A stretch of DNA of 64,000 bases from a virus. Under the pieces are notes generated by a model. The model was not told the DNA's origin. It made no database searches and worked only from the letters and a program-made list of their open reading frames with translations. The translations under genes and the position numbers were made by a program. This document shows, piece after piece, positions 21,233-49,538 of this stretch. Location: positions 58,780-122,779 of the IMG/VR virus record IMGVR_UViG_3300042114_000045; one strand, written 5' to 3'. Positions within the stretch are counted from its first letter, which is position 1. Each line of letters starts with the position of its first letter.

Positions 21233-21562
21233 GGGGATGTCCTGGCATCGACTAGAGCATCAAGCTACCTATGTGCTATCCAGTTGTAGAACTGTAAAAC
21301 TACACCAAAATTTTAAATGCAAACAATGTAAACTACAGATCAGCTCAATTCGTAAGAGTTGCTGCTTAATCTATAGCCTGGTCCCACTATATTACCAAAC
21401 GGGACTGTTTCGTCGAAAGACACCTCTCATATATACAAATATGCAGTATTAAAATGTATATCAGTCCGCAGCTACTGAACAAGCGACCAATTTAGTATGA
21501 TAGCTAAAAGCATGGATGCAAGGTGTTTTAACACACGGGTTCGACTCCCGTCATCTCCACCA
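21233..21562 (+). ncRNA. ssrA: tmRNA (transfer-messenger RNA)
   Basis: The 5' end GGGGATGTCCTGGCATCGAC and 3' end ending CGTCATCTCCACCA form the tRNA-like domain: GGGGATG pairs with CATCTCC, T-arm ACGGG-TTCGACT-CCCGT, encoded CCA. The 3' half keeps the conserved TCCGCAGCTACTGAACAAGCGA-like region followed by AGC and GTGTT/AACAC pairing before the T-arm. Length ~330 nt is typical. It would rescue stalled ribosomes with host SmpB and tag products for proteolysis. Confidence 0.93.
21319..21369 (+). CDS. tmRNA tag-peptide reading frame
   Basis: Resume codon GCA at 21319 gives ANNVNYRSAQFVRVAA then TAA (21367-21369). The ANNV start resembles Campylobacter-type tags and the hydrophobic ...AA end is the standard protease signal. 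The middle (YRSAQFVRV) differs from the usual APAYAK. Confidence 0.85.
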   Translation, partial: ANNVNYRSAQFVRVAA

Positions 21563-21564
21563 AT

Positions 21565-21653
21565 GGATAGATAGCCTAATGGTAAGGCACCAGCCTTGAA
21601 AGCTGGCGATAGAAGAAATTCTATTGAGAGTTCGAGTCTCTCTCTATCCTCCA
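21565..21653 (+). tRNA. tRNA-Ser (TGA)
   Basis: Acceptor GGATAGA/TCTATCC, anticodon arm CCAGC-CTTGAAA-GCTGG, long variable arm ATAGAAGAAATTCTAT, T-arm with TTCGAGT, and encoded CCA. A canonical class II tRNA. Confidence 0.95.
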
Positions 21654-21654
21654 T

Positions 21655-21729
21655 TCAAAGATAGTTCAACCGGGCAGAACAACAACCAGGGGGTTGTAGT
21701 TATAGGTTCAAATCCTGTTCTTTGATCCA
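21655..21729 (+). tRNA. tRNA, anticodon uncertain (GGG/AGG region)
   Basis: Acceptor TCAAAGA/TCTTTGA, D-arm GTTC...GAAC, T-arm ATAGG-TTCAAAT-CCTGT, encoded CCA. The anticodon stem ACAAC/GTTGT closes a 6-nt loop CAGGGG without a U33, so decoding (Pro?) is doubtful. Confidence 0.7.
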
Positions 21730-21734
21730 AATAA

Positions 21735-21811
21735 GGACCTGTAGCTTAAACGTAAAAGCCCTCGCCTCATAAGCGAAGAGATTTCATGACGTAACATGAA
21801 TGGGTCCACCA
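21735..21811 (+). tRNA. tRNA-Met-like (CAT) with unusual T-arm
   Basis: Acceptor GGACCT/GGGTCC, anticodon loop CTCATAA closed by TCGC/GCGA, and encoded ACCA. The T-arm is TTCATG/CATGAA with loop ACGTAA, lacking the TTC-purine-A motif found in nearly all elongator and initiator tRNAs. Confidence 0.7.
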
Positions 21812-21812
21812 C

Positions 21813-21900
21813 GGAGAGTTGAGAGAGTGGTTTATTCTACCTCTTTGCTAAAGAGGCGTAGTTTCGGCTACCATAGGTTCAAATCCTATACTCTCCTCCA
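21813..21900 (+). tRNA. tRNA-Ser (GCT)
   Basis: Acceptor GGAGAGT/ACTCTCC, anticodon arm CCTCT-TTGCTAA-AGAGG, variable arm GTAGTTTCGGCTAC, T-arm ATAGG-TTCAAAT-CCTAT, encoded CCA. Confidence 0.95.
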
Positions 21901-23260: not shown

Positions 23261-23285
23261 TCACAAACTAAACTAGGAAACAATA

Positions 23286-23624
23286 ATGTATATAGAACTT
23301 CAAACATTGGCATTTATTTTAATACTACACTTCGTAGCTGACTTTATTTTACAATCAGATTATATTGCTAAAACTAAGTCATCATCATGGAAATCTCTTA
23401 CTATCCATGTGAGTATATATACTATGGTTTTGCTACTTACACTAAACCCTTTATGGGCTTTCGTTAACGGTACCCTTCACTTTTGCGTAGATGCTGTAAC
23501 TTCAAGACTTACGTCAATGCTATGGAAAGAAGGCAAGACTCATTACTTTTTCGTTGTTATTGGGTTTGACCAATTACTTCACACTCTTATGTTGGTCACA
23601 ACCTATATTTATTTAACAAATTAA
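23286..23624 (+). CDS. DUF3307-like membrane protein
   Basis: 112 residues with three to four transmembrane helices. LHFVADFILQSDYIAKTKS near the N-terminus and the central histidine helix (LTIHVSIYTMVLLL) match the small 'H..aDF.lQ' membrane family often found in phages and beside Sat/Par genes. Biochemical role unknown. It opens the NAD-salvage unit. Confidence 0.75.
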   Translation: MYIELQTLAFILILHFVADFILQSDYIAKTKSSSWKSLTIHVSIYTMVLLLTLNPLWAFVNGTLHFCVDAVTSRLTSMLWKEGKTHYFFVVIGFDQLLHTLMLVTTYIYLTN

Positions 23625-36367: not shown

Positions 36368-37738
36368 ATGTACAGATATAAACTTAAAGCAGAAATAATC
36401 TCTGCTTTTCAAAACAACGAAATGGCAGCTATAAACGTAGCAACTTCAGAAATAATTCGTCATTTAATCGATTCAGGACAAATATACTATACTAGTACAT
36501 TCAAATTCGATGACCTACCTACAGATTTATCAATGCGTTCTTTTAACACATACTTTCCCATTCCTTATACAATGGAAAATGGTAACGACAGTAGATTTTC
36601 GATGCCAAAAAGCTGGGTGTCATACACAACAGATTTGCCAGCAGGTCAAATATGGAGTGAAACTAAGTATAGAACCGTTAACTTTAGTGGTGATCACTTA
36701 CTAGATCAAGTAAGAGTAAGGTATGCGTTTTATGACAGACCTATTTCAGGATTAATGAACGTAGTTATGGATAACTATATGCCAAAGATACTATACAACG
36801 CTAGATTTAATAGTAATAATCTTTTTAACCTTAAGTTACCAAAAACTATCTACTGTATATCACCTTGGTTTGCAGATGTAATTGGTGCTCATCAAATTGA
36901 AACAGAACAACTATGTAGAGTACTTGGCTATACAGTTAAAGATTTAAAGCAATTAATTACAAAAGTAAAAGCAAACAATTACTCAATTACATTTGTAGGG
37001 TATGGTGGAACTGGCGTTAATACAATTCACTGGTTAACAGAAATTATGAAATTTACAAACAGTGTAAACTTATTTAAGTTTGTAGAAATAGTAGAACCAG
37101 AAAGTTTAGAAATATCAAACTTATTAAGATTCCCTAAACACCCAAACAAGGTATCAAACAATAGTGTTATTACACAATATAATATGAAACCTTCAGCAAA
37201 ACTACGGCTATTAGATAAGTCAGAAGTTACGTTATTATCAAAAAATAAACCACATTTGCTTCAATCATACTTAGATAATGCAAGTAGGGATTATGGTATG
37301 CAAGGATTAGTATACGACTATGACTTAAATAGAAGAAATAGTACAGATGTATATAAAGCTAAAGATAACCACGTATTTTATGGTGCACCATCTTTAGGTA
37401 CAAGAGGAGTAATGGGACAATGGGGTAACTTTATTGCAGCTACTCATAGTGGAAACGGTTGCCAAATGTGGCTTAACCCAACGCAAGATACCGATTTACA
37501 AATAGAATCATATGGATTAATTTCATTAACTCAATTCTTTATGAATCAATTAAGAATGGCAATTTCTCTATTAGAAATATTAGCAGCAAAAACAGATTTA
37601 TCACAAGTGGATACCCAATTATTAGAGTACGCATTTGATGGTGTATCAAAATTAGCTACTGATAGATCGTACAATTTTCAATTACCTGAACATTCAGGAA
37701 ACGTAGCAACAGAGCAAGAAGCTGCTACAACATTTTAA
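36368..37738 (+). CDS. ThiF/E1-like (PRTRC-type) adenylating protein
   Basis: 456 residues. A ~200-residue N-terminal domain of unknown type precedes a Rossmann ThiF domain: ITFVGYGGTGVNTIHWLTEI (GxGGxG at res 211-216), then EIVEPESLEISNLLRFPKH, the counterpart of the E1 'D.D.ve..NL.RQ' motif with Glu in place of Asp. E1-like enzymes activate the C-terminus of ubiquitin-like proteins. The later part includes a possible crossover loop (YGAPSLGTRGVMGQWG). RBS AAAGGA; next gene 9 nt away. Confidence 0.75.
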   Translation: MYRYKLKAEIISAFQNNEMAAINVATSEIIRHLIDSGQIYYTSTFKFDDLPTDLSMRSFNTYFPIPYTMENGNDSRFSMPKSWVSYTTDLPAGQIWSETKYRTVNFSGDHLLDQVRVRYAFYDRPISGLMNVVMDNYMPKILYNARFNSNNLFNLKLPKTIYCISPWFADVIGAHQIETEQLCRVLGYTVKDLKQLITKVKANNYSITFVGYGGTGVNTIHWLTEIMKFTNSVNLFKFVEIVEPESLEISNLLRFPKHPNKVSNNSVITQYNMKPSAKLRLLDKSEVTLLSKNKPHLLQSYLDNASRDYGMQGLVYDYDLNRRNSTDVYKAKDNHVFYGAPSLGTRGVMGQWGNFIAATHSGNGCQMWLNPTQDTDLQIESYGLISLTQFFMNQLRMAISLLEILAAKTDLSQVDTQLLEYAFDGVSKLATDRSYNFQLPEHSGNVATEQEAATTF

Positions 37739-37747
37739 AGGGATTAT

Positions 37748-38776
37748 ATGTTAGATAAACAAACAATATTACAAGAAGTAATTAAAGAAGAACTAAAAGA
37801 ATTCTTAAAAAAAGAGGAACAAAACCTATATAAATCACAAGATTTACTATCAGCACTATCACTAACAGATGGTTCATACACAAAAGAGTTAAACACTTCA
37901 AGTGGATCAGTAGCGAATCTTTTATCAAATGAAAGATTAGCAGTATACTCAAAGGTATCATCTGTTTCACCAAAAGAATATATGACTCAATTAGGTCAAA
38001 ATATTATTAAAGTAGAAGAACAAATGAAAATAAAAAGTGCAATCGAACTTGCTGTGCACCTTCACGAACAGTTAGGTGATTCTCTAGCAGGTATAATTGC
38101 TATTACTGAAAAAGGTGCTTTAATCAACTTACTACATCACATTGTAGCTGTCGAATTAACACCTACAATATTCTCTAATACTGAAATAGTATCAAAGCTT
38201 ATCGTATTTACATTCAAAGATTTAGAAGAAATTAAATTACAGTATAATCCAGCAACAACACCTGAGTTAGAAGCTATTATGGATCAAACTATAAATGAAC
38301 ATATATTAGGTGCATCAACTATTCTTGAACCAAGATATATTAAAATTGTTAGAAATGATATCAGTTTAGAAAATAGATCGATTGTACAACAATATGCGAT
38401 TTCAAAAGGTGAAAATGAAATAAGGTCAAAAGAATACTACTTAACAGTACACCAATTACTGACTAGAAGTACTTTCGTTCCTTACTACGGTGTAACAATT
38501 GTTGCAATACCTTCATCTGGAAGTCCAGCTGGTCATCACGTTTCATTTACTAAAGGTGCAAACATTAGTAACCACGGTGGTACATCAGGAAACGTTTGCT
38601 GTGGGTCAAAGTCTAATAGGACAATTGAAGGTTTAAGAACACAACACCATTCAAATTTATCTTCTCCGTACAACTCAAATTGTATGACGACAGCATCATA
38701 TGCATACATTAAAAAATGTATAGAAAAGAGTATTTCAATTTACAGAAATACATTAAACATTCCGTTAGGAGAATAA
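37748..38776 (+). CDS. Cys/His-rich partner protein of the ThiF-JAMM cassette
   Basis: 342 residues. The N-terminal two-thirds is helical and acidic. The C-terminal third changes character: GVTIVAIPSSGSPAGHHVSF, then ISNHGGTSGNVCCGS and SPYNSNCMTTASYAY. A reactive Cys near His and Asn residues, between an E1-like and a JAMM protein, makes an E2-like or PRTRC-protein-B role worth testing. Assignment is positional, not by clear homology. Confidence 0.5.
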   Translation: MLDKQTILQEVIKEELKEFLKKEEQNLYKSQDLLSALSLTDGSYTKELNTSSGSVANLLSNERLAVYSKVSSVSPKEYMTQLGQNIIKVEEQMKIKSAIELAVHLHEQLGDSLAGIIAITEKGALINLLHHIVAVELTPTIFSNTEIVSKLIVFTFKDLEEIKLQYNPATTPELEAIMDQTINEHILGASTILEPRYIKIVRNDISLENRSIVQQYAISKGENEIRSKEYYLTVHQLLTRSTFVPYYGVTIVAIPSSGSPAGHHVSFTKGANISNHGGTSGNVCCGSKSNRTIEGLRTQHHSNLSSPYNSNCMTTASYAYIKKCIEKSISIYRNTLNIPLGE

Positions 38777-38777
38777 A

Positions 38778-40085
38778 ATGGAACAACTAGAGCCTAAAAT
38801 TAAAGACTCCGTAGATAAAAGTAACGCAGGTATACTCAGAATTACACAAAAAACGCTATCAGAAATAGCAAGAAATTCTGGACCTTTAGTTGCAACAAAC
38901 GAATTCCAAGTACATTATTGGGCACTAGTGATTAGACTAAAAGCACCAGATAACTCTGTACTTGATATCGCATTTCCGACAGTAGTATTTAACTACGCTC
39001 AACAAGTTACACCAGTACATATTGATTTTGAGCTAAAAGATGTAGAAGCAATGTCAAATGCACTACAACCACTACACGATCAGATAGCACAAAATATACT
39101 TGAGAAGTTTACAACTAACAAAAGTATGTTAATGCCTTTCGCTTACGAAGCTTTATCGGTTCCATTGAATACTCTACATAGACACCCTTCTGGTGTAGGA
39201 AGTTTTTCAGGAACAGACTATGGAAAAAACCATATAGTTAATACAGGAGTAGTATTTCCTCTGTCAATAGCCAATGAAACACCATCTTTCAGTAGTATTA
39301 TGTATAATAACCCGATAAAACTTACTAGAACGGAATACAGAATAGCAACTGGATCTACGCAGGCAGAAGGTATTATGTACAGAAAAGGTAGAACAGCGAC
39401 AGTATACATTACAGAACCAGAAGCTACTTCACAAATTGAACAGTACTTAGGTATTGGGGTTAACACTGATGGATTAAATAACATTACTCTCGTAGATAAT
39501 GGAATATCTTCATTACCAACACCATTACTCAAATTAATAGCTAGTGTAGATGTAGAGCCTAATACACAATTTATTGCAGCTGAAAACGTTACTAAAGCAG
39601 AAAAAATTACATACATGTATGATGGTATAGGTAGTTTTAGAAAAACACCTGTTACAGTTAATTATGGATATAACTCAGCTCCAATGGATTCTTATCTAGC
39701 CGATGACACAGAAACTTTACAAAAAATTGAAAAGAAATACTCAATTGAGTTTAAAGAGGACAAGGATCTATTCGTTCTATCAAAAACAGCATTGATTAAA
39801 ACCATATGTACTTTTGAAAAAATATACTACGGAAGAGAACCATCAACACCTGAATTAAATGAGTACCAAAAAACTACAAAAAAAGATCTAGTAGAAACTT
39901 TACTAGAGCTACAGTACTTAGTTTATGAAGAGTTTTCTGCAGATGATAATGGTGATAATCCAGCAACAGATGAAATAGCGGAAATGAAAGGTGCTCTTAT
40001 GCAAGCCGGTTTAGGTCTAGTAGAAGCAGAAAATGCAACAGATGAACAAATAAGAAAATGGCATGAAGCCATATTTGGAGAATAA
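38778..40085 (+). CDS. JAMM/JAB metallopeptidase-like protein
   Basis: 435 residues. LHRHPSGVGSFSGTD contains the full JAMM zinc signature H-x-H-x7-S-x2-D (His133, His135, Ser143, Asp146), with a candidate catalytic Glu at res ~42 (ATNEFQVHYWALV). JAMM peptidases remove ubiquitin-like proteins or cut at Gly motifs. A long unassigned C-terminal half ends in acidic helices. It begins one base after the Cys/His-rich gene and runs into the RT gene start. Confidence 0.78.
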   Translation: MEQLEPKIKDSVDKSNAGILRITQKTLSEIARNSGPLVATNEFQVHYWALVIRLKAPDNSVLDIAFPTVVFNYAQQVTPVHIDFELKDVEAMSNALQPLHDQIAQNILEKFTTNKSMLMPFAYEALSVPLNTLHRHPSGVGSFSGTDYGKNHIVNTGVVFPLSIANETPSFSSIMYNNPIKLTRTEYRIATGSTQAEGIMYRKGRTATVYITEPEATSQIEQYLGIGVNTDGLNNITLVDNGISSLPTPLLKLIASVDVEPNTQFIAAENVTKAEKITYMYDGIGSFRKTPVTVNYGYNSAPMDSYLADDTETLQKIEKKYSIEFKEDKDLFVLSKTALIKTICTFEKIYYGREPSTPELNEYQKTTKKDLVETLLELQYLVYEEFSADDNGDNPATDEIAEMKGALMQAGLGLVEAENATDEQIRKWHEAIFGE

Positions 40086-40086
40086 A

Positions 40087-40845
40087 ATGACATATAGAGA
40101 ATTCCTTATACCAAAAAGAAATAAAGGTACGAGAAAAATTACAGCACCAGATGCGGAATTACTAGCATATCAAAGAAGTGCTCTCCCAAGAATTGAAGCT
40201 CTATGGGCAGACACTGCAGCGGAATATGGAGTAGAAGATGTACAATACGGATTCATTACAGGACGGAACGTAGTTACAGCCGCAAATAACCATATCGGAT
40301 ATAGAGCATCAATTGGTATGGATATAGCAGACTTCTTCGATTCAGTAACTACGGAACACATCAGACCATTCTCTGAGGACTTAGCAAATGATACAAATTT
40401 ATTTCATGCAGATGGGTATTGTTCACAAGGATTTGCAACATCACCGATGTTAGCTAATTTAGCTTTAATACCAGCGTTACAAGAATTAGATGAATATCTT
40501 CATAATAATCCTGAAATAGATTTTGCTACATCTATGACAGTATATGCAGATGACGTAACAGTATCTGCAAATACAGAAGATATGACAAAATTAGTTGTTA
40601 TAATCGAAGCAGTAACTACTATTCTTGCAAATCATGGGTTTACAATAAAACCTACTAAAACTAGAATTAGATTTGCCAGATACGGTTATAGAAGAATGCT
40701 AGGAATTATGGTTGGGGACAACAATATTAAAGTCCCTAGAAAAATTAAGTATAGAATGAGAGCAGCTAAATTTCAAGGCAATCATCATTCTTTAGGTGGC
40801 TTAGTAACTTGGAGTAGACTCCAATTACCAAAAGCTCTACGGTAG
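40087..40845 (+). CDS. Retron-type reverse transcriptase
   Basis: 252 residues from ATG 40087 (GGAGAATAAA upstream), a compact RT. Motifs in order: FLIPKRNKGTRKITAP (RT1), QYGFITGRNVVTAANNH (retron 'GF..gr....NA..H' type), SIGMDIADFFDSV with first catalytic Asp79, SQGFATSPMLANLAL (QGxxxSP), TVYADDVTVS with Asp155/Asp156, then LGIMVGDNNIKVPRKIKYRM as thumb. No maturase or DGR-type extension. Five retron-like RNA elements follow directly downstream and a sixth at 47259, strongly suggesting they are its templates. Co-transcribed with the E1-like and JAMM genes. Confidence 0.9.
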   Translation: MTYREFLIPKRNKGTRKITAPDAELLAYQRSALPRIEALWADTAAEYGVEDVQYGFITGRNVVTAANNHIGYRASIGMDIADFFDSVTTEHIRPFSEDLANDTNLFHADGYCSQGFATSPMLANLALIPALQELDEYLHNNPEIDFATSMTVYADDVTVSANTEDMTKLVVIIEAVTTILANHGFTIKPTKTRIRFARYGYRRMLGIMVGDNNIKVPRKIKYRMRAAKFQGNHHSLGGLVTWSRLQLPKALR

Positions 40846-40857
40846 GTATCTTACCTA

Positions 40858-41061
40858 CTAGTGATATATAGTAGAATAAATTCTCACATTAAGCTGATTA
40901 GTATAAAATAAGAGTGTCATCACCTTTGTTATAATGTTATACTAATATTCAGCTGCAGACTACCGCTTCGCTAACGTCTGCAGCTGAAGGGATGCGGCGT
41001 TCGAACCTGGAGACAGGATCCTACATGTTAAACCCTGTAAAACGGTACTATATATCACTAG
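40858..41061 (+). ncRNA. Retron-like RNA element E1 (msr-msd architecture)
   Basis: Arms CTAGTGATATATAGTA (40858-40873) and its perfect complement at 41046-41061 (16 bp). G at 40874 follows the 5' arm (TA|GAA). Short hairpin 40897-40906/40937-40946, loop motif GTCATCACCTTTG at 40916-40928. Long hairpin 40948-40960/40976-40988 (13 bp perfect) with 15-nt loop. AAAACGG precedes the 3' arm. Confidence 0.8.
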
Positions 41062-41075
41062 TGGGTAAAACCACC

Positions 41076-41313
41076 ACAATACTCACTAAGTATAGAAACC
41101 TTACCCAATCATAACATGATTGTTATTGTATAAGAATGTAATCATCTTTGATATATAGCAGTAACAGTATTCATGTTTTAGAAAACCTGAAATTTCTTCT
41201 TAAAATTTTCTAACGAAAATTTATAATCAGAAATATTCACGAAATCTAAAACATGAATCATCCGGGTCCATGCATACGCTGCACAAAAAACGGTATACTT
41301 AGGTAAGTATTGT
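41076..41313 (+). ncRNA. Retron-like RNA element E2
   Basis: Arms 41076-41094 and 41294-41313 (17 pairs, small internal loop). G at 41095 follows the 5' arm. Short hairpin 41121-41132/41154-41166 with GTAATCATCTTTG at 41138-41150. Long hairpin 41169-41182/41245-41258 (14 bp perfect) with further nested pairing inside (AAATTTTC/GAAAATTT). AAAACGG precedes the 3' arm, which shares 10 nt with the 5' arm of E3. Confidence 0.8.
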
Positions 41314-41550
41314 AAAACACATAGAACTTATTTAATTTATATAAATAGAAATATTATAAAGTTAAAGCGTCTCACTAGTAGTTTTAGAAGAATGTAATCA
41401 TCTTTGGTAAATAGGAACTACTGCAGATGAGATGACAAAAGTTCCCGTTGAGGAGAACTCATGGCCGCAGGCCAAACGTTCTCCTCGGCTGGGAACAAAT
41501 GTCATCTCATCCTGCTGGTGCGCAAAATCGTATGTGTTTTACAATACTTA
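41304..41550 (+). ncRNA. Retron-like RNA element E3
   Basis: The best arms of the array: TAAGTATTGTAAAACACATA (41304-41323) and a 20-nt perfect complement at 41531-41550. G at 41324. Short hairpin 41377-41385/41414-41422 with GTAATCATCTTTG at 41394-41406 (19 nt identical to E2). Long hairpin 41426-41437/41500-41511 (12 bp) containing nested GTTCCC/GGGAAC, GAGGAGAAC/GTTCTCCTC and TGGCC/GGCCA stems. Confidence 0.82.
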
Positions 41551-41684
41551 TAGTAGACTTTTTGTAGAAAAAGGAACGGTAGAAGTATCATCGCCGAACT
41601 TAAGACTTTTTCTAATGTATTTTCAAAGAATATCTGATTAGAACGTAATAACTAAACGATATTCTTATAGTACTATATAGTATT
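41543..41684 (+). ncRNA. Retron-like RNA element E4 (compact)
   Basis: The shortest copy. Arms AATACTTATAGTA (41543-41555) and TACTATATAGTATT (41671-41684), 13 pairs with one bulge. G at 41556. Short hairpin AGAAAAAG/CTTTTTCT (41566-41573/41606-41613) with GTATCATCGCCG at 41585-41596. Long hairpin AAGAATATC/GATATTCTT (41626-41634/41658-41666). Its arms overlap those of E3 by 8 nt and E5 by 2 nt. Confidence 0.6.
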
Positions 41685-41902
41685 AAAAATATTTAAGGGT
41701 ATAGAATTAAATTTCAATAAACTAGCTTGTAATAGTAGGAAGGTGTATCACCTCTGCTATAACGCTATTACATTAGACTAGTTTAGCGCACCCGCCCACT
41801 GTCCCTAAGTTGCGCCCTATCGGGCTGCACTTTAAGACAGTCAGCTACAGCGCTAAACTAGTCAACGTTTTGAAAAAAAGGTATACCCTTAAATATTTTT
41901 AA
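41683..41902 (+). ncRNA. Retron-like RNA element E5
   Basis: Perfect 21-bp arms at 41683-41703 and 41882-41902. G at 41704 (TATA|GAA). Short hairpin TGTAATAG/CTATTACA (41728-41735/41765-41772) with GTATCACCTCTG at 41745-41756. Long hairpin 41776-41789/41850-41863 (14 bp perfect), nested ACTGTC/GACAGT and GCCC/GGGC inside. A7 then GGTATA leads into the 3' arm, which ends at the helicase ribosome site. Confidence 0.82.
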
Positions 41903-41914
41903 GAAAGAAGAAAC

Positions 41915-43345
41915 ATGATATCATACACAGACGAACAAGAAGCTATAATAGATTTAGCACAAAACCCACAAGTACATCTAATTAAGGTATCTTCAGTTGC
42001 AGGATCAGGAAAAACGCATACACTAAAAGGAGTAGCAAGAGCACTAAACTCAACTAACGCACTATACACTGCCTTTAATGCAGCTGTAATAGATGAAGGT
42101 AGACTTACATTTCCTAAAAATGTAACCTGCAAAACATTAGATGCAATAGCATATCAATATGTAGTTAGACCTCATAAATATAAAATAGAAAATTTTACTA
42201 TTGATAGTATTAAAGAAAAATTACAACCACATGTAAAAAGACAAATTATTAAAGCGATGGAAGATTTTTTCAAATCAGCTTCATTAGACTTAATGTCTAT
42301 TACAGCTACTATTGAGAAAAAATATGCTACAATTGCAATAGCATATATTGAAAAGATGGTAGAAGGAGAAGTTCCAGTAACATTCGATTTCTGCAAGAAA
42401 TACCTATACCTACAAATGGTAGAAGGCAACGTAGTTATAGACGAATATGATTTAGTAATGCTTGATGAAGCAGGAGATATTTCAGAAGTTACAATAGAAA
42501 TATTTAAACGAATCATAGCTAACAAAAAGATAATGGTTGGTGATCCACATCAAAACATCTACAGTTTCCTCAATACAGTTAATGGATTTGAAGTGCTAAA
42601 AAACGAAGGTGTAGAACTAGCATTATCACAATCGTTCAGAGTTTCAGAACAAATAGCTGTAAATATAGAACGTTTTTGTAGAAGACACTTAAATCCTAAT
42701 ATGCATTTCCGTGGTATTCACATAGAAGATAAAACGATTAAATCAAGAGCATTTATATCCCGTACAAACTCAACTATGATATCAAGAATGATGGATCTAC
42801 ACGGTGAAAACATAAATTATACACTCCTTAGAACTCCAAAAGAAATATTCAAATTACCGTTAGCCCTTATATCAATATCAGGAAATAAACCTGTAGATAA
42901 AGAATTCGCATATCTACAAACAGACAAAAATAATTATTTAAAAAGTAACTTATTTGACGAAGCCGGTAAAAGAATGACATTCCATAGATATCTTAGAGAA
43001 TTACACAGCGATGACGTAAACTTAGTATCAGCATTACGACTTTTAGAAACACACTCATACGGAGAAATATTTGATTGTTACAAAAAAGCTCATGAGCAAC
43101 CAAAGAAAAGACAAACCATTGTAGTAACTACGGCTCATGTCTGCAAAGGTCAAACTTACGACTCAGTATTTATTGAAGATGACCTAAATAAAAGTGTAAC
43201 AAAAGCTATAAAAAGTAATAAAGGAACTGAAGAAGAACTTACTGAATTAAACCTATATTACGTAGCTGTATCACGAGCTAGGGTAGAATTGACAAATGCA
43301 ACAGTATTAGACTACGAAGAAAAACCAGAAAAAAAGAATAAATAA
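41915..43345 (+). CDS. UvrD/Rep-type SF1 helicase
   Basis: 476 residues. Walker A KVSSVAGSGKTHTLKG, motif Ia region LYTAFNAAVIDEG, Walker B DLVMLDEAGDIS, motif III MVGDPHQNIYSF, motif IV SQSFRVSEQIA, and motifs V-VI TTAHVCKGQTYDSVFIEDD and LYYVAVSRARVEL. Short for UvrD and close to F-box-helicase-like phage enzymes. Unwinds DNA 3'-5' in replication or repair. Its ribosome site lies just downstream of the 3' arm of E5, so folding or processing of that RNA could affect its translation. Confidence 0.9.
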   Translation: MISYTDEQEAIIDLAQNPQVHLIKVSSVAGSGKTHTLKGVARALNSTNALYTAFNAAVIDEGRLTFPKNVTCKTLDAIAYQYVVRPHKYKIENFTIDSIKEKLQPHVKRQIIKAMEDFFKSASLDLMSITATIEKKYATIAIAYIEKMVEGEVPVTFDFCKKYLYLQMVEGNVVIDEYDLVMLDEAGDISEVTIEIFKRIIANKKIMVGDPHQNIYSFLNTVNGFEVLKNEGVELALSQSFRVSEQIAVNIERFCRRHLNPNMHFRGIHIEDKTIKSRAFISRTNSTMISRMMDLHGENINYTLLRTPKEIFKLPLALISISGNKPVDKEFAYLQTDKNNYLKSNLFDEAGKRMTFHRYLRELHSDDVNLVSALRLLETHSYGEIFDCYKKAHEQPKKRQTIVVTTAHVCKGQTYDSVFIEDDLNKSVTKAIKSNKGTEEELTELNLYYVAVSRARVELTNATVLDYEEKPEKKNK

Positions 43346-46592: not shown

Positions 46593-47258
46593 ATGGAATT
46601 TGAAATAGTAAAAAGTATAAACCATACGTATTCCTCAAGTCTAGAAACTATTTTAGAAACTTTAAATAATTTACCTGACTTAATAGCATGCGACTTTGAA
46701 GCAGCTTCTCGTTGGACGGACACAGAAAAACAAACGATGAAAGATTTTCTTAAAGAAGAAAAACTAAATCCAACTACTGACCATGAAGAAATAAGATTGA
46801 TAAACCAATATATTGAATCTACAGGATTATCACACCCAACACTTACCTATATAACACATTTTTCGGTAGCTTGGTCAGAAGTAGACTCATTTGTAGCAAT
46901 TCTTGATACAGAGGAAAAACGTAAAGCTGTATGCAACTGGCTAGTTAATACAGATCGTAAACAGATATGGCATAACTTATCATTCGACGGTAAACTAATT
47001 AACTACCATACAGGGAAGTTACCACGGAACTACGAGGATACAGAAATTTTAACTAGATGTCTACTTAACCGCGTTAAAACTGATGAAGCTAAATCCTCAT
47101 TAAAACACCTAATGGGGTACAGATACGGAGATTGGGCAGTTACAAAAGATAACTTTAACTTAGCAAATCTATATGATGAACAACTAATAGAATACGCAGC
47201 TATTGACTCTTGTGCAACCTACGCTTTATACAATGAAATATTAGGGTACTTAAAATAG
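46593..47258 (+). CDS. 3'-5' exonuclease (PolA-type, separate gene)
   Basis: 221 residues. LPDLIACDFEAASRW has the DxE motif (Exo I), IWHNLSFDGKLINYH Exo II, and LIEYAAIDSCATYALYNEI the Exo III Asp. This is the proofreading domain that in E. coli Pol I or T7 polymerase is joined to the polymerase. Here it is its own gene, separated from the polymerase by a retron-like RNA and a small membrane protein. Confidence 0.85.
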   Translation: MEFEIVKSINHTYSSSLETILETLNNLPDLIACDFEAASRWTDTEKQTMKDFLKEEKLNPTTDHEEIRLINQYIESTGLSHPTLTYITHFSVAWSEVDSFVAILDTEEKRKAVCNWLVNTDRKQIWHNLSFDGKLINYHTGKLPRNYEDTEILTRCLLNRVKTDEAKSSLKHLMGYRYGDWAVTKDNFNLANLYDEQLIEYAAIDSCATYALYNEILGYLK

Positions 47259-47484
47259 TTAGATTATATAAGCAATATACCTATTTATATAGAACATATA
47301 ACTCATAAACTAAGATAAGAGAATGTATCATCTCCGTTGTGTATCTTAGTTAAAGATGAGTTCAACAATCGCTCCAGCAGAGCTTACGCATTGTTGAACT
47401 CATCTGGACTCCAGTATACCTGCGGGCCCTGCCACGGTGGACTGGTTTCAGGTATATAGATAGTATATTGTTTATATAACCTAA
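47259..47484 (+). ncRNA. Retron-like RNA element E6 (remote copy)
   Basis: Arms at 47259-47279 and 47464-47484: 21 positions, one A/C mismatch, one G-U, extendable with a bulge through ATACCTAT. TATA|GAA with G at 47292. Short hairpin AACTAAGATA/TATCTTAGTT (47308-47317/47342-47351) carrying GTATCATCTCCG at 47325-47336. Long hairpin 47354-47369/47390-47405 (16 bp perfect) with a GCTC/GAGC inner stem. AGGTATA precedes the 3' arm. Confidence 0.78.
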
Positions 47485-47503
47485 TTAAATAACAGCATAC
47501 TGG

Positions 47504-47538
47504 TAATTAACCTTAAAAACAACTCATAATTAACCTTA
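47504..47538 (+). repeat. 12-bp direct repeat before the polymerase genes
   Basis: TAATTAACCTTA occurs at 47504-47515 and 47527-47538, just upstream of the small membrane gene. Could be a protein-binding or promoter element. Confidence 0.4.
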
Positions 47539-47571
47539 TTGCGTAAATAAGTGTAATTGAAAGGAACGAAC

Positions 47572-47691
47572 ATGGAAACAGATATAAACATACCCGATTG
47601 GGTAGTTGCAGTAATTGCTGGTTTTGGAACTGTACAAGTACTGGCATTAACGTACTTCGGTATATGGATGACTTGGACATGGAAGAAATAA
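47572..47691 (+). CDS. Small single-pass membrane protein, 39 aa
   Basis: Good AAAGGAACGAAC site before ATG 47572. METDINIPDWVVAVIAGFGT is followed by a transmembrane helix and a short WTWKK tail. Overlaps the polymerase start by ~28 bp in another frame, so translation is probably coupled. Confidence 0.6.
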   Translation: METDINIPDWVVAVIAGFGTVQVLALTYFGIWMTWTWKK

Positions 47692-49538
47692 AATCACCAC
47701 ATGACCTACTACCATTAAAACCACCAAGTGAAGAAGAATTCAAATCAGATAAAGGGTTTTTCTATAGAAACGTAGCTAAGCCTTTAATTGCTGACACAAT
47801 CCGTATTATGGCAAACGGTCTACCTATAGACTTAAAGCGTGTACAAGAACTAGAGAAAAAACTAGATGAACTACTAGAACAAGTACATATAACAATAGCA
47901 AATAATGCTTGTATAAAAGACTTTCAAGATTACAAATACCCAATAATAGCGGCTGAGGTTAAATCAGAGATACAATCAAAAATGAAACCGCCTGCTCATT
48001 GGCAGAGAGACTTCAAATGTGATGACCCGATTCACCGTAGCTACTATATGCATTTATACGCAAAAGATAAAGCAGATATAATATATCCTATTAAACTACT
48101 TGCCACTGGTATAGCACAATGGGATGCAAATTATGTCAAAAAGCTTGCAAAAATACATAAAGATTTAGAACCATTAGTAAACAAAACAGTACCGCAAAGT
48201 AATAAATTAGCTAGAGGTGCAATCAAACTATTTACTCAGCATAAATCTGCAATGTATAATAAATCGTATCTTGATCAAATCGCTCAAATAAAAAGAGAAA
48301 CTGTAATGCAACCATTTAATCCAGGTTCTGCTCCACAGAAATCAGAATTTTTTGAATGGTTAGGTATTGAACCGGTAGAATTCAGTAAAGATACTGGTAA
48401 CCCATCTTGGGGTAGAAAAGTTATAGAAGAGCTACTATCAACAGAACAAGATCCAGATATCAGAGAAATATATCAAGCTTTCATAGACTTCTCATTCGCA
48501 TCGATAGTTCGTAATAACTTCATAGAAGCGTTTTACAACTATACAGTAGATGGGAAATTATACGGCAATTACAGGCTATTAGGTGCAAAATCAGGTAGAT
48601 ACACCTCTAATAATCCTAATATGCTTAACAGTCCTTCAACAGGTTCGATCTATGCAAAACCTATTAAGAGATGTTTTACAGCACCACCAGGTTATCTGGT
48701 CTGGTCAATAGACTACGCTGCACTAGAAGATAGAGTAATTGCTTCTCTAACTGCAGATACTAATAAATGTGGGTTATTTCTACAAGACTTAGATGGACAC
48801 TCAATGGGTGCGGTAGCATACTTCCCAGATAAAGTAAAAGAAGAAATGGAATTAACAGGAGATATGCCGACAGATGCTAGAGAATTTAAACGACTAGTAG
48901 ACGAGGGCAATAAACCACTTAAAACATTAAGACAAAACGGAAAAGGTGTAACATTCGGCTTAAGCTACGGGGCTTATCCACCGAAAGTCGCAAAGGCGTT
49001 AAAGATACCAATAAATGAAGCAGAGGATATTTTTAATAACTATCACAATAAGTTATACCCTGGTATAACAAAATACAGAGAAGGATACGTACTTGAAACA
49101 GCTAAGAAAAATCATCGTGTACACTTGGGTATGGGTTTCTACATTAGTACTGACAATCCAAGGAAAGATATACGGACATTAAATAATGCTACTTGTCAAT
49201 TTTGGTCAATACTAACAGCATTATCCATAAATAAACTACATACTTTAATTGATGAAAATCTTATATACACTAGTGACATACAAGTTACTTCTACGATATA
49301 CGACTCAATCTACGGGATAGTTTATAACGACCCAGAAATAATTGCTTGGTTAAATCATAACATAGTAAATATAATGGAGACAGATTTTATGACAGATCAA
49401 ATAGTTAAGAATGAAGCTCAGTTAGAGCTTGGAAACGATTGGTCTGATCTACACCCTCTTCCGAAAGATGCGTCAGAAGAGGTAGTTAAGAGCATCATTA
49501 AGGAAATTAAAAATGGTAAAAGAAAAGAAACTACCTGA
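47664..49538 (+). CDS. Family A DNA polymerase (polymerase domain only)
   Basis: About 624 residues from ATG 47664; ATG 47679 is an alternative. The open frame further upstream overlaps the small membrane gene. Motif A WSIDYAALEDRVIASLTAD, motif B LRQNGKGVTFGLSYGA and a motif C of the form STIYDSIYGIV. Motif C is normally HDE; here the catalytic Asp is kept but flanking residues read YDS. There is no exonuclease domain in this chain; the proofreading domain is encoded at 46593. Main replicative polymerase candidate. Confidence 0.9.
   Translation: MDDLDMEEIKSPHDLLPLKPPSEEEFKSDKGFFYRNVAKPLIADTIRIMANGLPIDLKRVQELEKKLDELLEQVHITIANNACIKDFQDYKYPIIAAEVKSEIQSKMKPPAHWQRDFKCDDPIHRSYYMHLYAKDKADIIYPIKLLATGIAQWDANYVKKLAKIHKDLEPLVNKTVPQSNKLARGAIKLFTQHKSAMYNKSYLDQIAQIKRETVMQPFNPGSAPQKSEFFEWLGIEPVEFSKDTGNPSWGRKVIEELLSTEQDPDIREIYQAFIDFSFASIVRNNFIEAFYNYTVDGKLYGNYRLLGAKSGRYTSNNPNMLNSPSTGSIYAKPIKRCFTAPPGYLVWSIDYAALEDRVIASLTADTNKCGLFLQDLDGHSMGAVAYFPDKVKEEMELTGDMPTDAREFKRLVDEGNKPLKTLRQNGKGVTFGLSYGAYPPKVAKALKIPINEAEDIFNNYHNKLYPGITKYREGYVLETAKKNHRVHLGMGFYISTDNPRKDIRTLNNATCQFWSILTALSINKLHTLIDENLIYTSDIQVTSTIYDSIYGIVYNDPEIIAWLNHNIVNIMETDFMTDQIVKNEAQLELGNDWSDLHPLPKDASEEVVKSIIKEIKNGKRKETT

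Follow-up and report, generated by a model that had tools for sequence, protein, structure and literature searches.

How many templates can a single retron reverse transcriptase serve in a phage? The question is raised by a locus in a viral contig of 122.8 kb (IMG/VR record IMGVR_UViG_3300042114_000045), of which the final 64 kb are the DNA analysed here, called the window. In it, a gene for a retron-type reverse transcriptase (RT) is followed by five tandem units resembling retron non-coding RNAs (ncRNAs), with a sixth further downstream. Judged from its DNA, the locus is likely a phage-borne retron in which a single RT would serve several templates and give rise to several multicopy single-stranded DNAs (msDNAs). 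The basis of this reading is the anatomy of the units, covariation, the class of the RT and the recurrence of such arrays in other phages. Our confidence extends to the multi-template retron and not to its role.

The reverse transcriptase and its units

The array is headed by the following gene:

40087 to 40845, + strand: retron-type RT, 252 amino acids, YADD motif, without effector domain

The protein matches RVT_1 in Pfam (E value 7e-21), the PADLOC models scoring highest on it are retron RT models, and its PDB sequence matches are retron RTs in 12 of 12 cases. Its predicted structure is confident (predicted local distance difference test score, pLDDT, 93). In a fold search with this model the top 13 matches are retron RT chains, led by Eco2 and Ec86, and the RTs of group II introns, defence-associated RTs (DRT) and diversity-generating retroelements (DGR) rank below them. 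By sequence and modelled fold the window RT is classed as retron-type, with retron RTs as its nearest relatives. No effector domain is fused to it.

The units are listed below, with fold z-scores taken against dinucleotide shuffles. Junction scores come from a scan of both strands of the contig for TA/G...G/TA flanked by complementary arms, the slash marking the arm boundary.

40851 to 41068, + strand: unit E1; arms a1 40851-40873 and a2 41046-41068 (23 nucleotides, nt; 96%); presumed branch G 40874; msr hairpin with GTCATCACC at 40916-40924; msd hairpin 40948-40988; fold z -7.8, junction score 50.5
41076 to 41313, + strand: unit E2; a1 41076-41094 and a2 41294-41313, arms interrupted; presumed branch G 41095; loop GTAATCATC at 41138-41146; msd hairpin 41169-41258; fold z -6.9, junction score 33 (barely above background)
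41304 to 41550, + strand: unit E3; a1 41304-41323 and a2 41531-41550 (20 nt, perfect); presumed branch G 41324; loop GTAATCATC at 41394-41402; msd hairpin 41426-41511; fold z -13.2, junction score 44.5
41543 to 41684, + strand: unit E4, short and weak; junction TA/GAC...G/TA; fold z -1.6, junction score 28 (background level)
41683 to 41902, + strand: unit E5; a1 41683-41703 and a2 41882-41902 (21 nt, perfect); presumed branch G 41704; msr hairpin AGGTG-TAT-CACCT at 41741-41753; msd hairpin 41776-41863; fold z -11.9, junction score 45
47268 to 47475, + strand: unit E6, away from the array; a1 47268-47291 and a2 47453-47475; presumed branch G 47292; msr hairpin GAGAATGTATCATCTC at 47319-47334; fold z -7.6, junction score 41.0

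Every unit has one junction pattern: a 5' arm with TA as its last two letters, then a G, and, on the other side, a G directly before a 3' arm starting with TA. The G directly after the 5' arm, already pointed out in the preliminary description, is present at the a1/msr junction of every unit in a scan that required it, and the relatives described below show it too; its role in branching is presumed. Mismatch-free arm stretches reach 17-21 nt in E1, E3 and E5, and the longest exact arm among 20 whole-window shuffles was 14 nt. The junction scan recovered E1 to E5 and the site at 47268-47475. The remaining sites in the contig score 30 or less, and the peak in 10 shuffled windows was 32.5. E1, E3, E5 and E6 are secure as inverted-repeat units and stand far above background. 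Folding and alignment place an msr stem-loop and then an msd hairpin within the units, which by anatomy are retron ncRNAs. The arms, folds and junction scan thus confirm the earlier claim of five retron-like units downstream of a retron-type RT, with E4 weak, and the sixth element mentioned there is most likely E6. DNA polymerase A is split in the window (46593-49538), and E6, 5.4 kb past the five-unit array, sits between the exonuclease open reading frame (ORF) and the polymerase ORF.

The junction pattern is also matched at 23274-23435, a site that was rejected for its background score and its position mostly inside an ORF. An apparent excess of six-base palindromes in the msd parts (22 versus 10.4) was not used, as hairpin stems count them twice. 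In scans for promoters and terminators, the counts were those expected by chance.

The RNAs might bind the RT but work as RNAs, as regulators or scaffolds, and never be reverse transcribed. The msDNA of the units is a prediction, and ncRNA has been put to other uses in some RT systems. Against this, the branch-type G and the arm junctions match those of retrons and the window RT retains its catalytic YADD, so that we regard an RNA-only function as improbable.

Related phages and covariation

A scan with an RT alignment found phage RTs 41-58% identical to the window RT; single-sequence scans of the viral contig collection, run with the RT and with the primase, yielded no relative. The window RT and its relatives form one clade of seven phage RTs (support 100/100), whose members have 1, 1, 1, 2, 2, 3 and 5 units adjoining the RT. 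Contig L034 shares the gene order of the window and has three units in the interval from RT to helicase, of which two exceed background and the third was seen by eye. L113 and L033 carry two units each, L031 and L032 one each, and L116 one that was seen by eye. At the place of E6, L034 has no counterpart; the gap of about 500 nt between its split polymerase ORFs holds other sequence, apparently an ORF. Loop-motif scans of the viral contig collection revealed no array, the inspected matches lacking arms or lying in coding sequence. Counting units by arms alone does not decide their number in AT-rich arrays, for which the null counts overlap. Before another phage RT, a 989-nt noncoding block (L124 5006-5994, identical to L039 4006-4994) contains many strong hairpins with repeated GTTGCTTCGA-like loops and arm scores not above the null; it may be a further array.

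Across 16 units of the clade the msr hairpin takes the form stem-G-NAU(N)-C-stem, with a few loop variants. The loop GT(N)ATCAYC given in the preliminary description is exact in E1 to E3; the other units do not have it, and this broader family form takes its place. At the third pair from the loop G-C, A-T, C-G and T-A all occur, with no mismatch in the 16 units. Pairs 2 and 3 are standard in 31 of 32 cells versus 19.6 expected, and after removal of identical rows (8 distinct rows) in 15 of 16 (p = 9e-5), in rows that are related and hence not independent and that were picked by eye around the loop, not blind. At the level of sequence, this covariation lends strong support to a retron ncRNA anatomy.

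Arrays of the same kind recur outside the clade. In all eight Staphylococcus jumbo phages examined (S6, DC4, PALS_2, Madawaska, LY01, SA1, Machias and AH12) a noncoding block of 1.1-1.3 kb with 4-5 units lies immediately before the RT. Unguided RNAalifold on the Staphylococcus alignment recovers hairpins, two of which have changes on both sides in 4 of 9 pairs and zero broken pairs. Compensatory changes, which the preliminary description proposed to seek in related phages, are present in the msr hairpin and, separately, in these arrays. Identity among close Staphylococcus phages is 86% in msd, 96% in msr and 98% in the arms, and among distant ones 39% in msd versus 57-63% in msr and arms. Near the RT of Listeria phage LPJP1, a noncoding block of 1.2 kb contains four hairpin copies with the GTAATC loop seen in E2 and E3. 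What the Staphylococcus phages and LPJP1 have in common with the window is a retron-like RT next to 4-5 hairpin units in tandem. They differ in the position of the array, which in Staphylococcus precedes the RT and in LPJP1 follows a second ORF, in the RT, which is about 20% identical to the window RT and has an extra N-terminal part, and in their arm and loop sequences. The approximately unbiased test (AU, p 0.46) neither demonstrates nor rejects joint monophyly of these RTs with the window clade, and the same value does not establish that the window and Staphylococcus arrays arose independently. A viral contig scan with the Staphylococcus/Listeria RT alignment gave no match. The recurrence of arrays in other phages strengthens the proposal of one RT with several templates.

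Use of the units as template donors for altering phage genes, as in DGRs, was also considered. In passages of the UFV_DC4 phage paper the Staphylococcus RT is named and a DGR-like role is discussed, and the same passages note that DGR regions are absent (PMC10638138); no mention of RNAs like the present units was seen in them. Elsewhere in the 122.8-kb contig the units match nothing beyond chance, a result that speaks against a donor or DGR function; a template/variable repeat pair was not found, and the window RT groups with retron RTs. We consider such a role very improbable.

Several observations weigh against a full set of working templates in the window. E2 folds well, yet its junction score is barely above background, and E4 is no better than shuffles in fold and junction scan; support for E4 is weak and comes mainly from where it lies, from its junction and from L034, which has a short unit like it. 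Arm sequence is common to neighbouring units at 41304-41313 (E2/E3), 41543-41550 (E3/E4) and 41683-41684 (E4/E5). The outer arms of adjacent units therefore overlap, and full-length arms cannot all form together on one transcript, so that some units may be weak or inactive; the inner arms of all units can pair simultaneously. To these points are added the choice of hairpin rows by eye, the units seen by eye in L034 and L116, and the fact that we infer transcription, priming and msDNA of the units. Units b and c of L034 likewise share arm sequence.

The weak E4, the interrupted E2 and the overlapping outer arms would also suit an array in which only part of the units are active templates and the rest are decaying copies of one ancestral ncRNA. 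Pairing is strong in E1, E3, E5 and E6, however, and 4-5 units are retained across Staphylococcus phages whose RTs are 54-100% identical. Decay of this kind is in our opinion unlikely.

Mechanism, role and neighbouring genes

If the locus is a multi-template retron, each unit would be transcribed and its a1 and a2 ends would pair. The RT would bind the common msr hairpin (stem-G-NAU-C-stem), the G after a1 would prime through its 2'-OH, and msd would be copied inwards from the G/TA end. The product would be one branched msDNA per unit, of five to six kinds.

As to role, the msDNAs or RT-msDNA complexes might act as trans decoys, aimed at those defence proteins of the host whose recognised targets are retron DNA or DNA hairpins. 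This is the likeliest of the roles considered, and is put forward tentatively, because no conserved effector lies beside the RT and msd drifts fast with msr and arms kept. The rapid drift of msd, the kept msr and arms, and several different units per phage fit trans decoys for varied host targets. On the other side, counter-defence is a function that we infer, and partner genes are possibly among the uncharacterised neighbours.

The main rival is a defence retron with an unrecognised partner, carried by the phage against competing phages; its msDNAs would gate a partner encoded elsewhere in the phage, with several triggers sensed. Known retrons operate by this scheme (PMC12548924). A gene of about 274-291 amino acids starts directly after the RT in every examined Staphylococcus jumbo phage (L015 3899-4723), is conserved there, and is a possible partner of the RT. 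A three-gene operon (36368-40085) directly precedes the window RT, and also precedes the RT of L034. Against a defence retron, no PADLOC effector match was found among the RT neighbours tested, and neighbours vary within the clade, with the operon in the window and L034 and other genes in L113 and L116. The genes after the RT in S6 and in LPJP1 are also unlike each other. A defence retron of this kind seems doubtful to us.

By eye, the operon proteins have ThiF/E1-like (GYGGTG), E2-like and JAB-like (HRHPSG...S..D) motifs. Pfam gave just a weak Prok-JAB match for an L034 operon protein (E value 0.074), and the structure model of the 435-amino-acid upstream protein is poor (pLDDT 39.6). The ThiF/E2/JAB-like identity of these proteins is unproven. 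GajB matches of 41915-43345 are explained by a UvrD-like helicase fold and were rejected as evidence of an effector. Elsewhere in the window, a transfer-messenger RNA gene (21233-21900, tag ANNVNYRSAQFVRVAA) lies beside several tRNA genes.

Beyond the decoy role, a broader idea is offered with greater reserve: lytic phages might have domesticated retrons as multi-template DNA factories, whose diversified msDNA arsenal would serve as trans decoys or inhibitors versus several host defences. Retrons would then be used by viruses rather than against viruses. The usual description is of one RT, one ncRNA and one effector in bacterial anti-phage defence; here phages keep the RT and multiply the template, and a fixed effector appears absent. 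As arrays occur in Staphylococcus jumbo phages that are in culture, and in a Listeria phage, the idea is testable at once.

Comparison with known retrons

Our searches of the open-access literature returned nothing relevant on natural multi-ncRNA retrons, on phage retrons or on retron RNAs in these phages, and the novelty of natural multi-ncRNA phage retrons, judged mainly on that literature, is provisional. Going by its title, Gonzalez-Delgado et al. 2024 (cited in PMC12548924) reportedly deals with engineered retron arrays, in which several templates are brought together for multi-site editing. Those arrays are synthetic and made for genome editing, whereas the window array is natural and found in a phage; if our reading is true, it would be a natural retron array making several single-stranded DNAs from one RT.

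The closest PDB RT to the window RT, by sequence and by fold, belongs to the Eco2 (Ec67) family with its RT-Toprim fusion. In the Eco2 structure IRa1 and IRa2 pair, rG15 is branched, msr forms one stem-loop and msd one long hairpin (PMC12405507). The window units have the same a1/a2 arms, G after a1, msr stem-loop and long msd hairpin, and Ec67-family plasmid loci have the same layout. A Proteus copy of this family reads GCATGTAGGCA/G...G/TGCTTACATGC, with the hairpin GATTGTG-TAT-CACAATC, whose loop (GTG-TAT-CAC) is that of E5. The a1-msr-msd-a2 order proposed in the preliminary description is supported by the class of the RT, the junctions, the relatives, the msr covariation and this layout. 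Eco2 has one ncRNA upstream of a Toprim-fused RT and acts in bacterial defence; the window, unlike Eco2, is phage DNA in which as many as six units follow an RT without fused effector. Ec86 (Eco1) and other bacterial defence retrons share the RT fold, but the window differs from them in its several ncRNAs and in the lack of an effector fused to the RT. Such retrons typically have one ncRNA and an effector (PMC12548924). Instead of one ncRNA per RT, the window has five beside the RT and one distant; a single ncRNA is common among the retrons described but does not define them.
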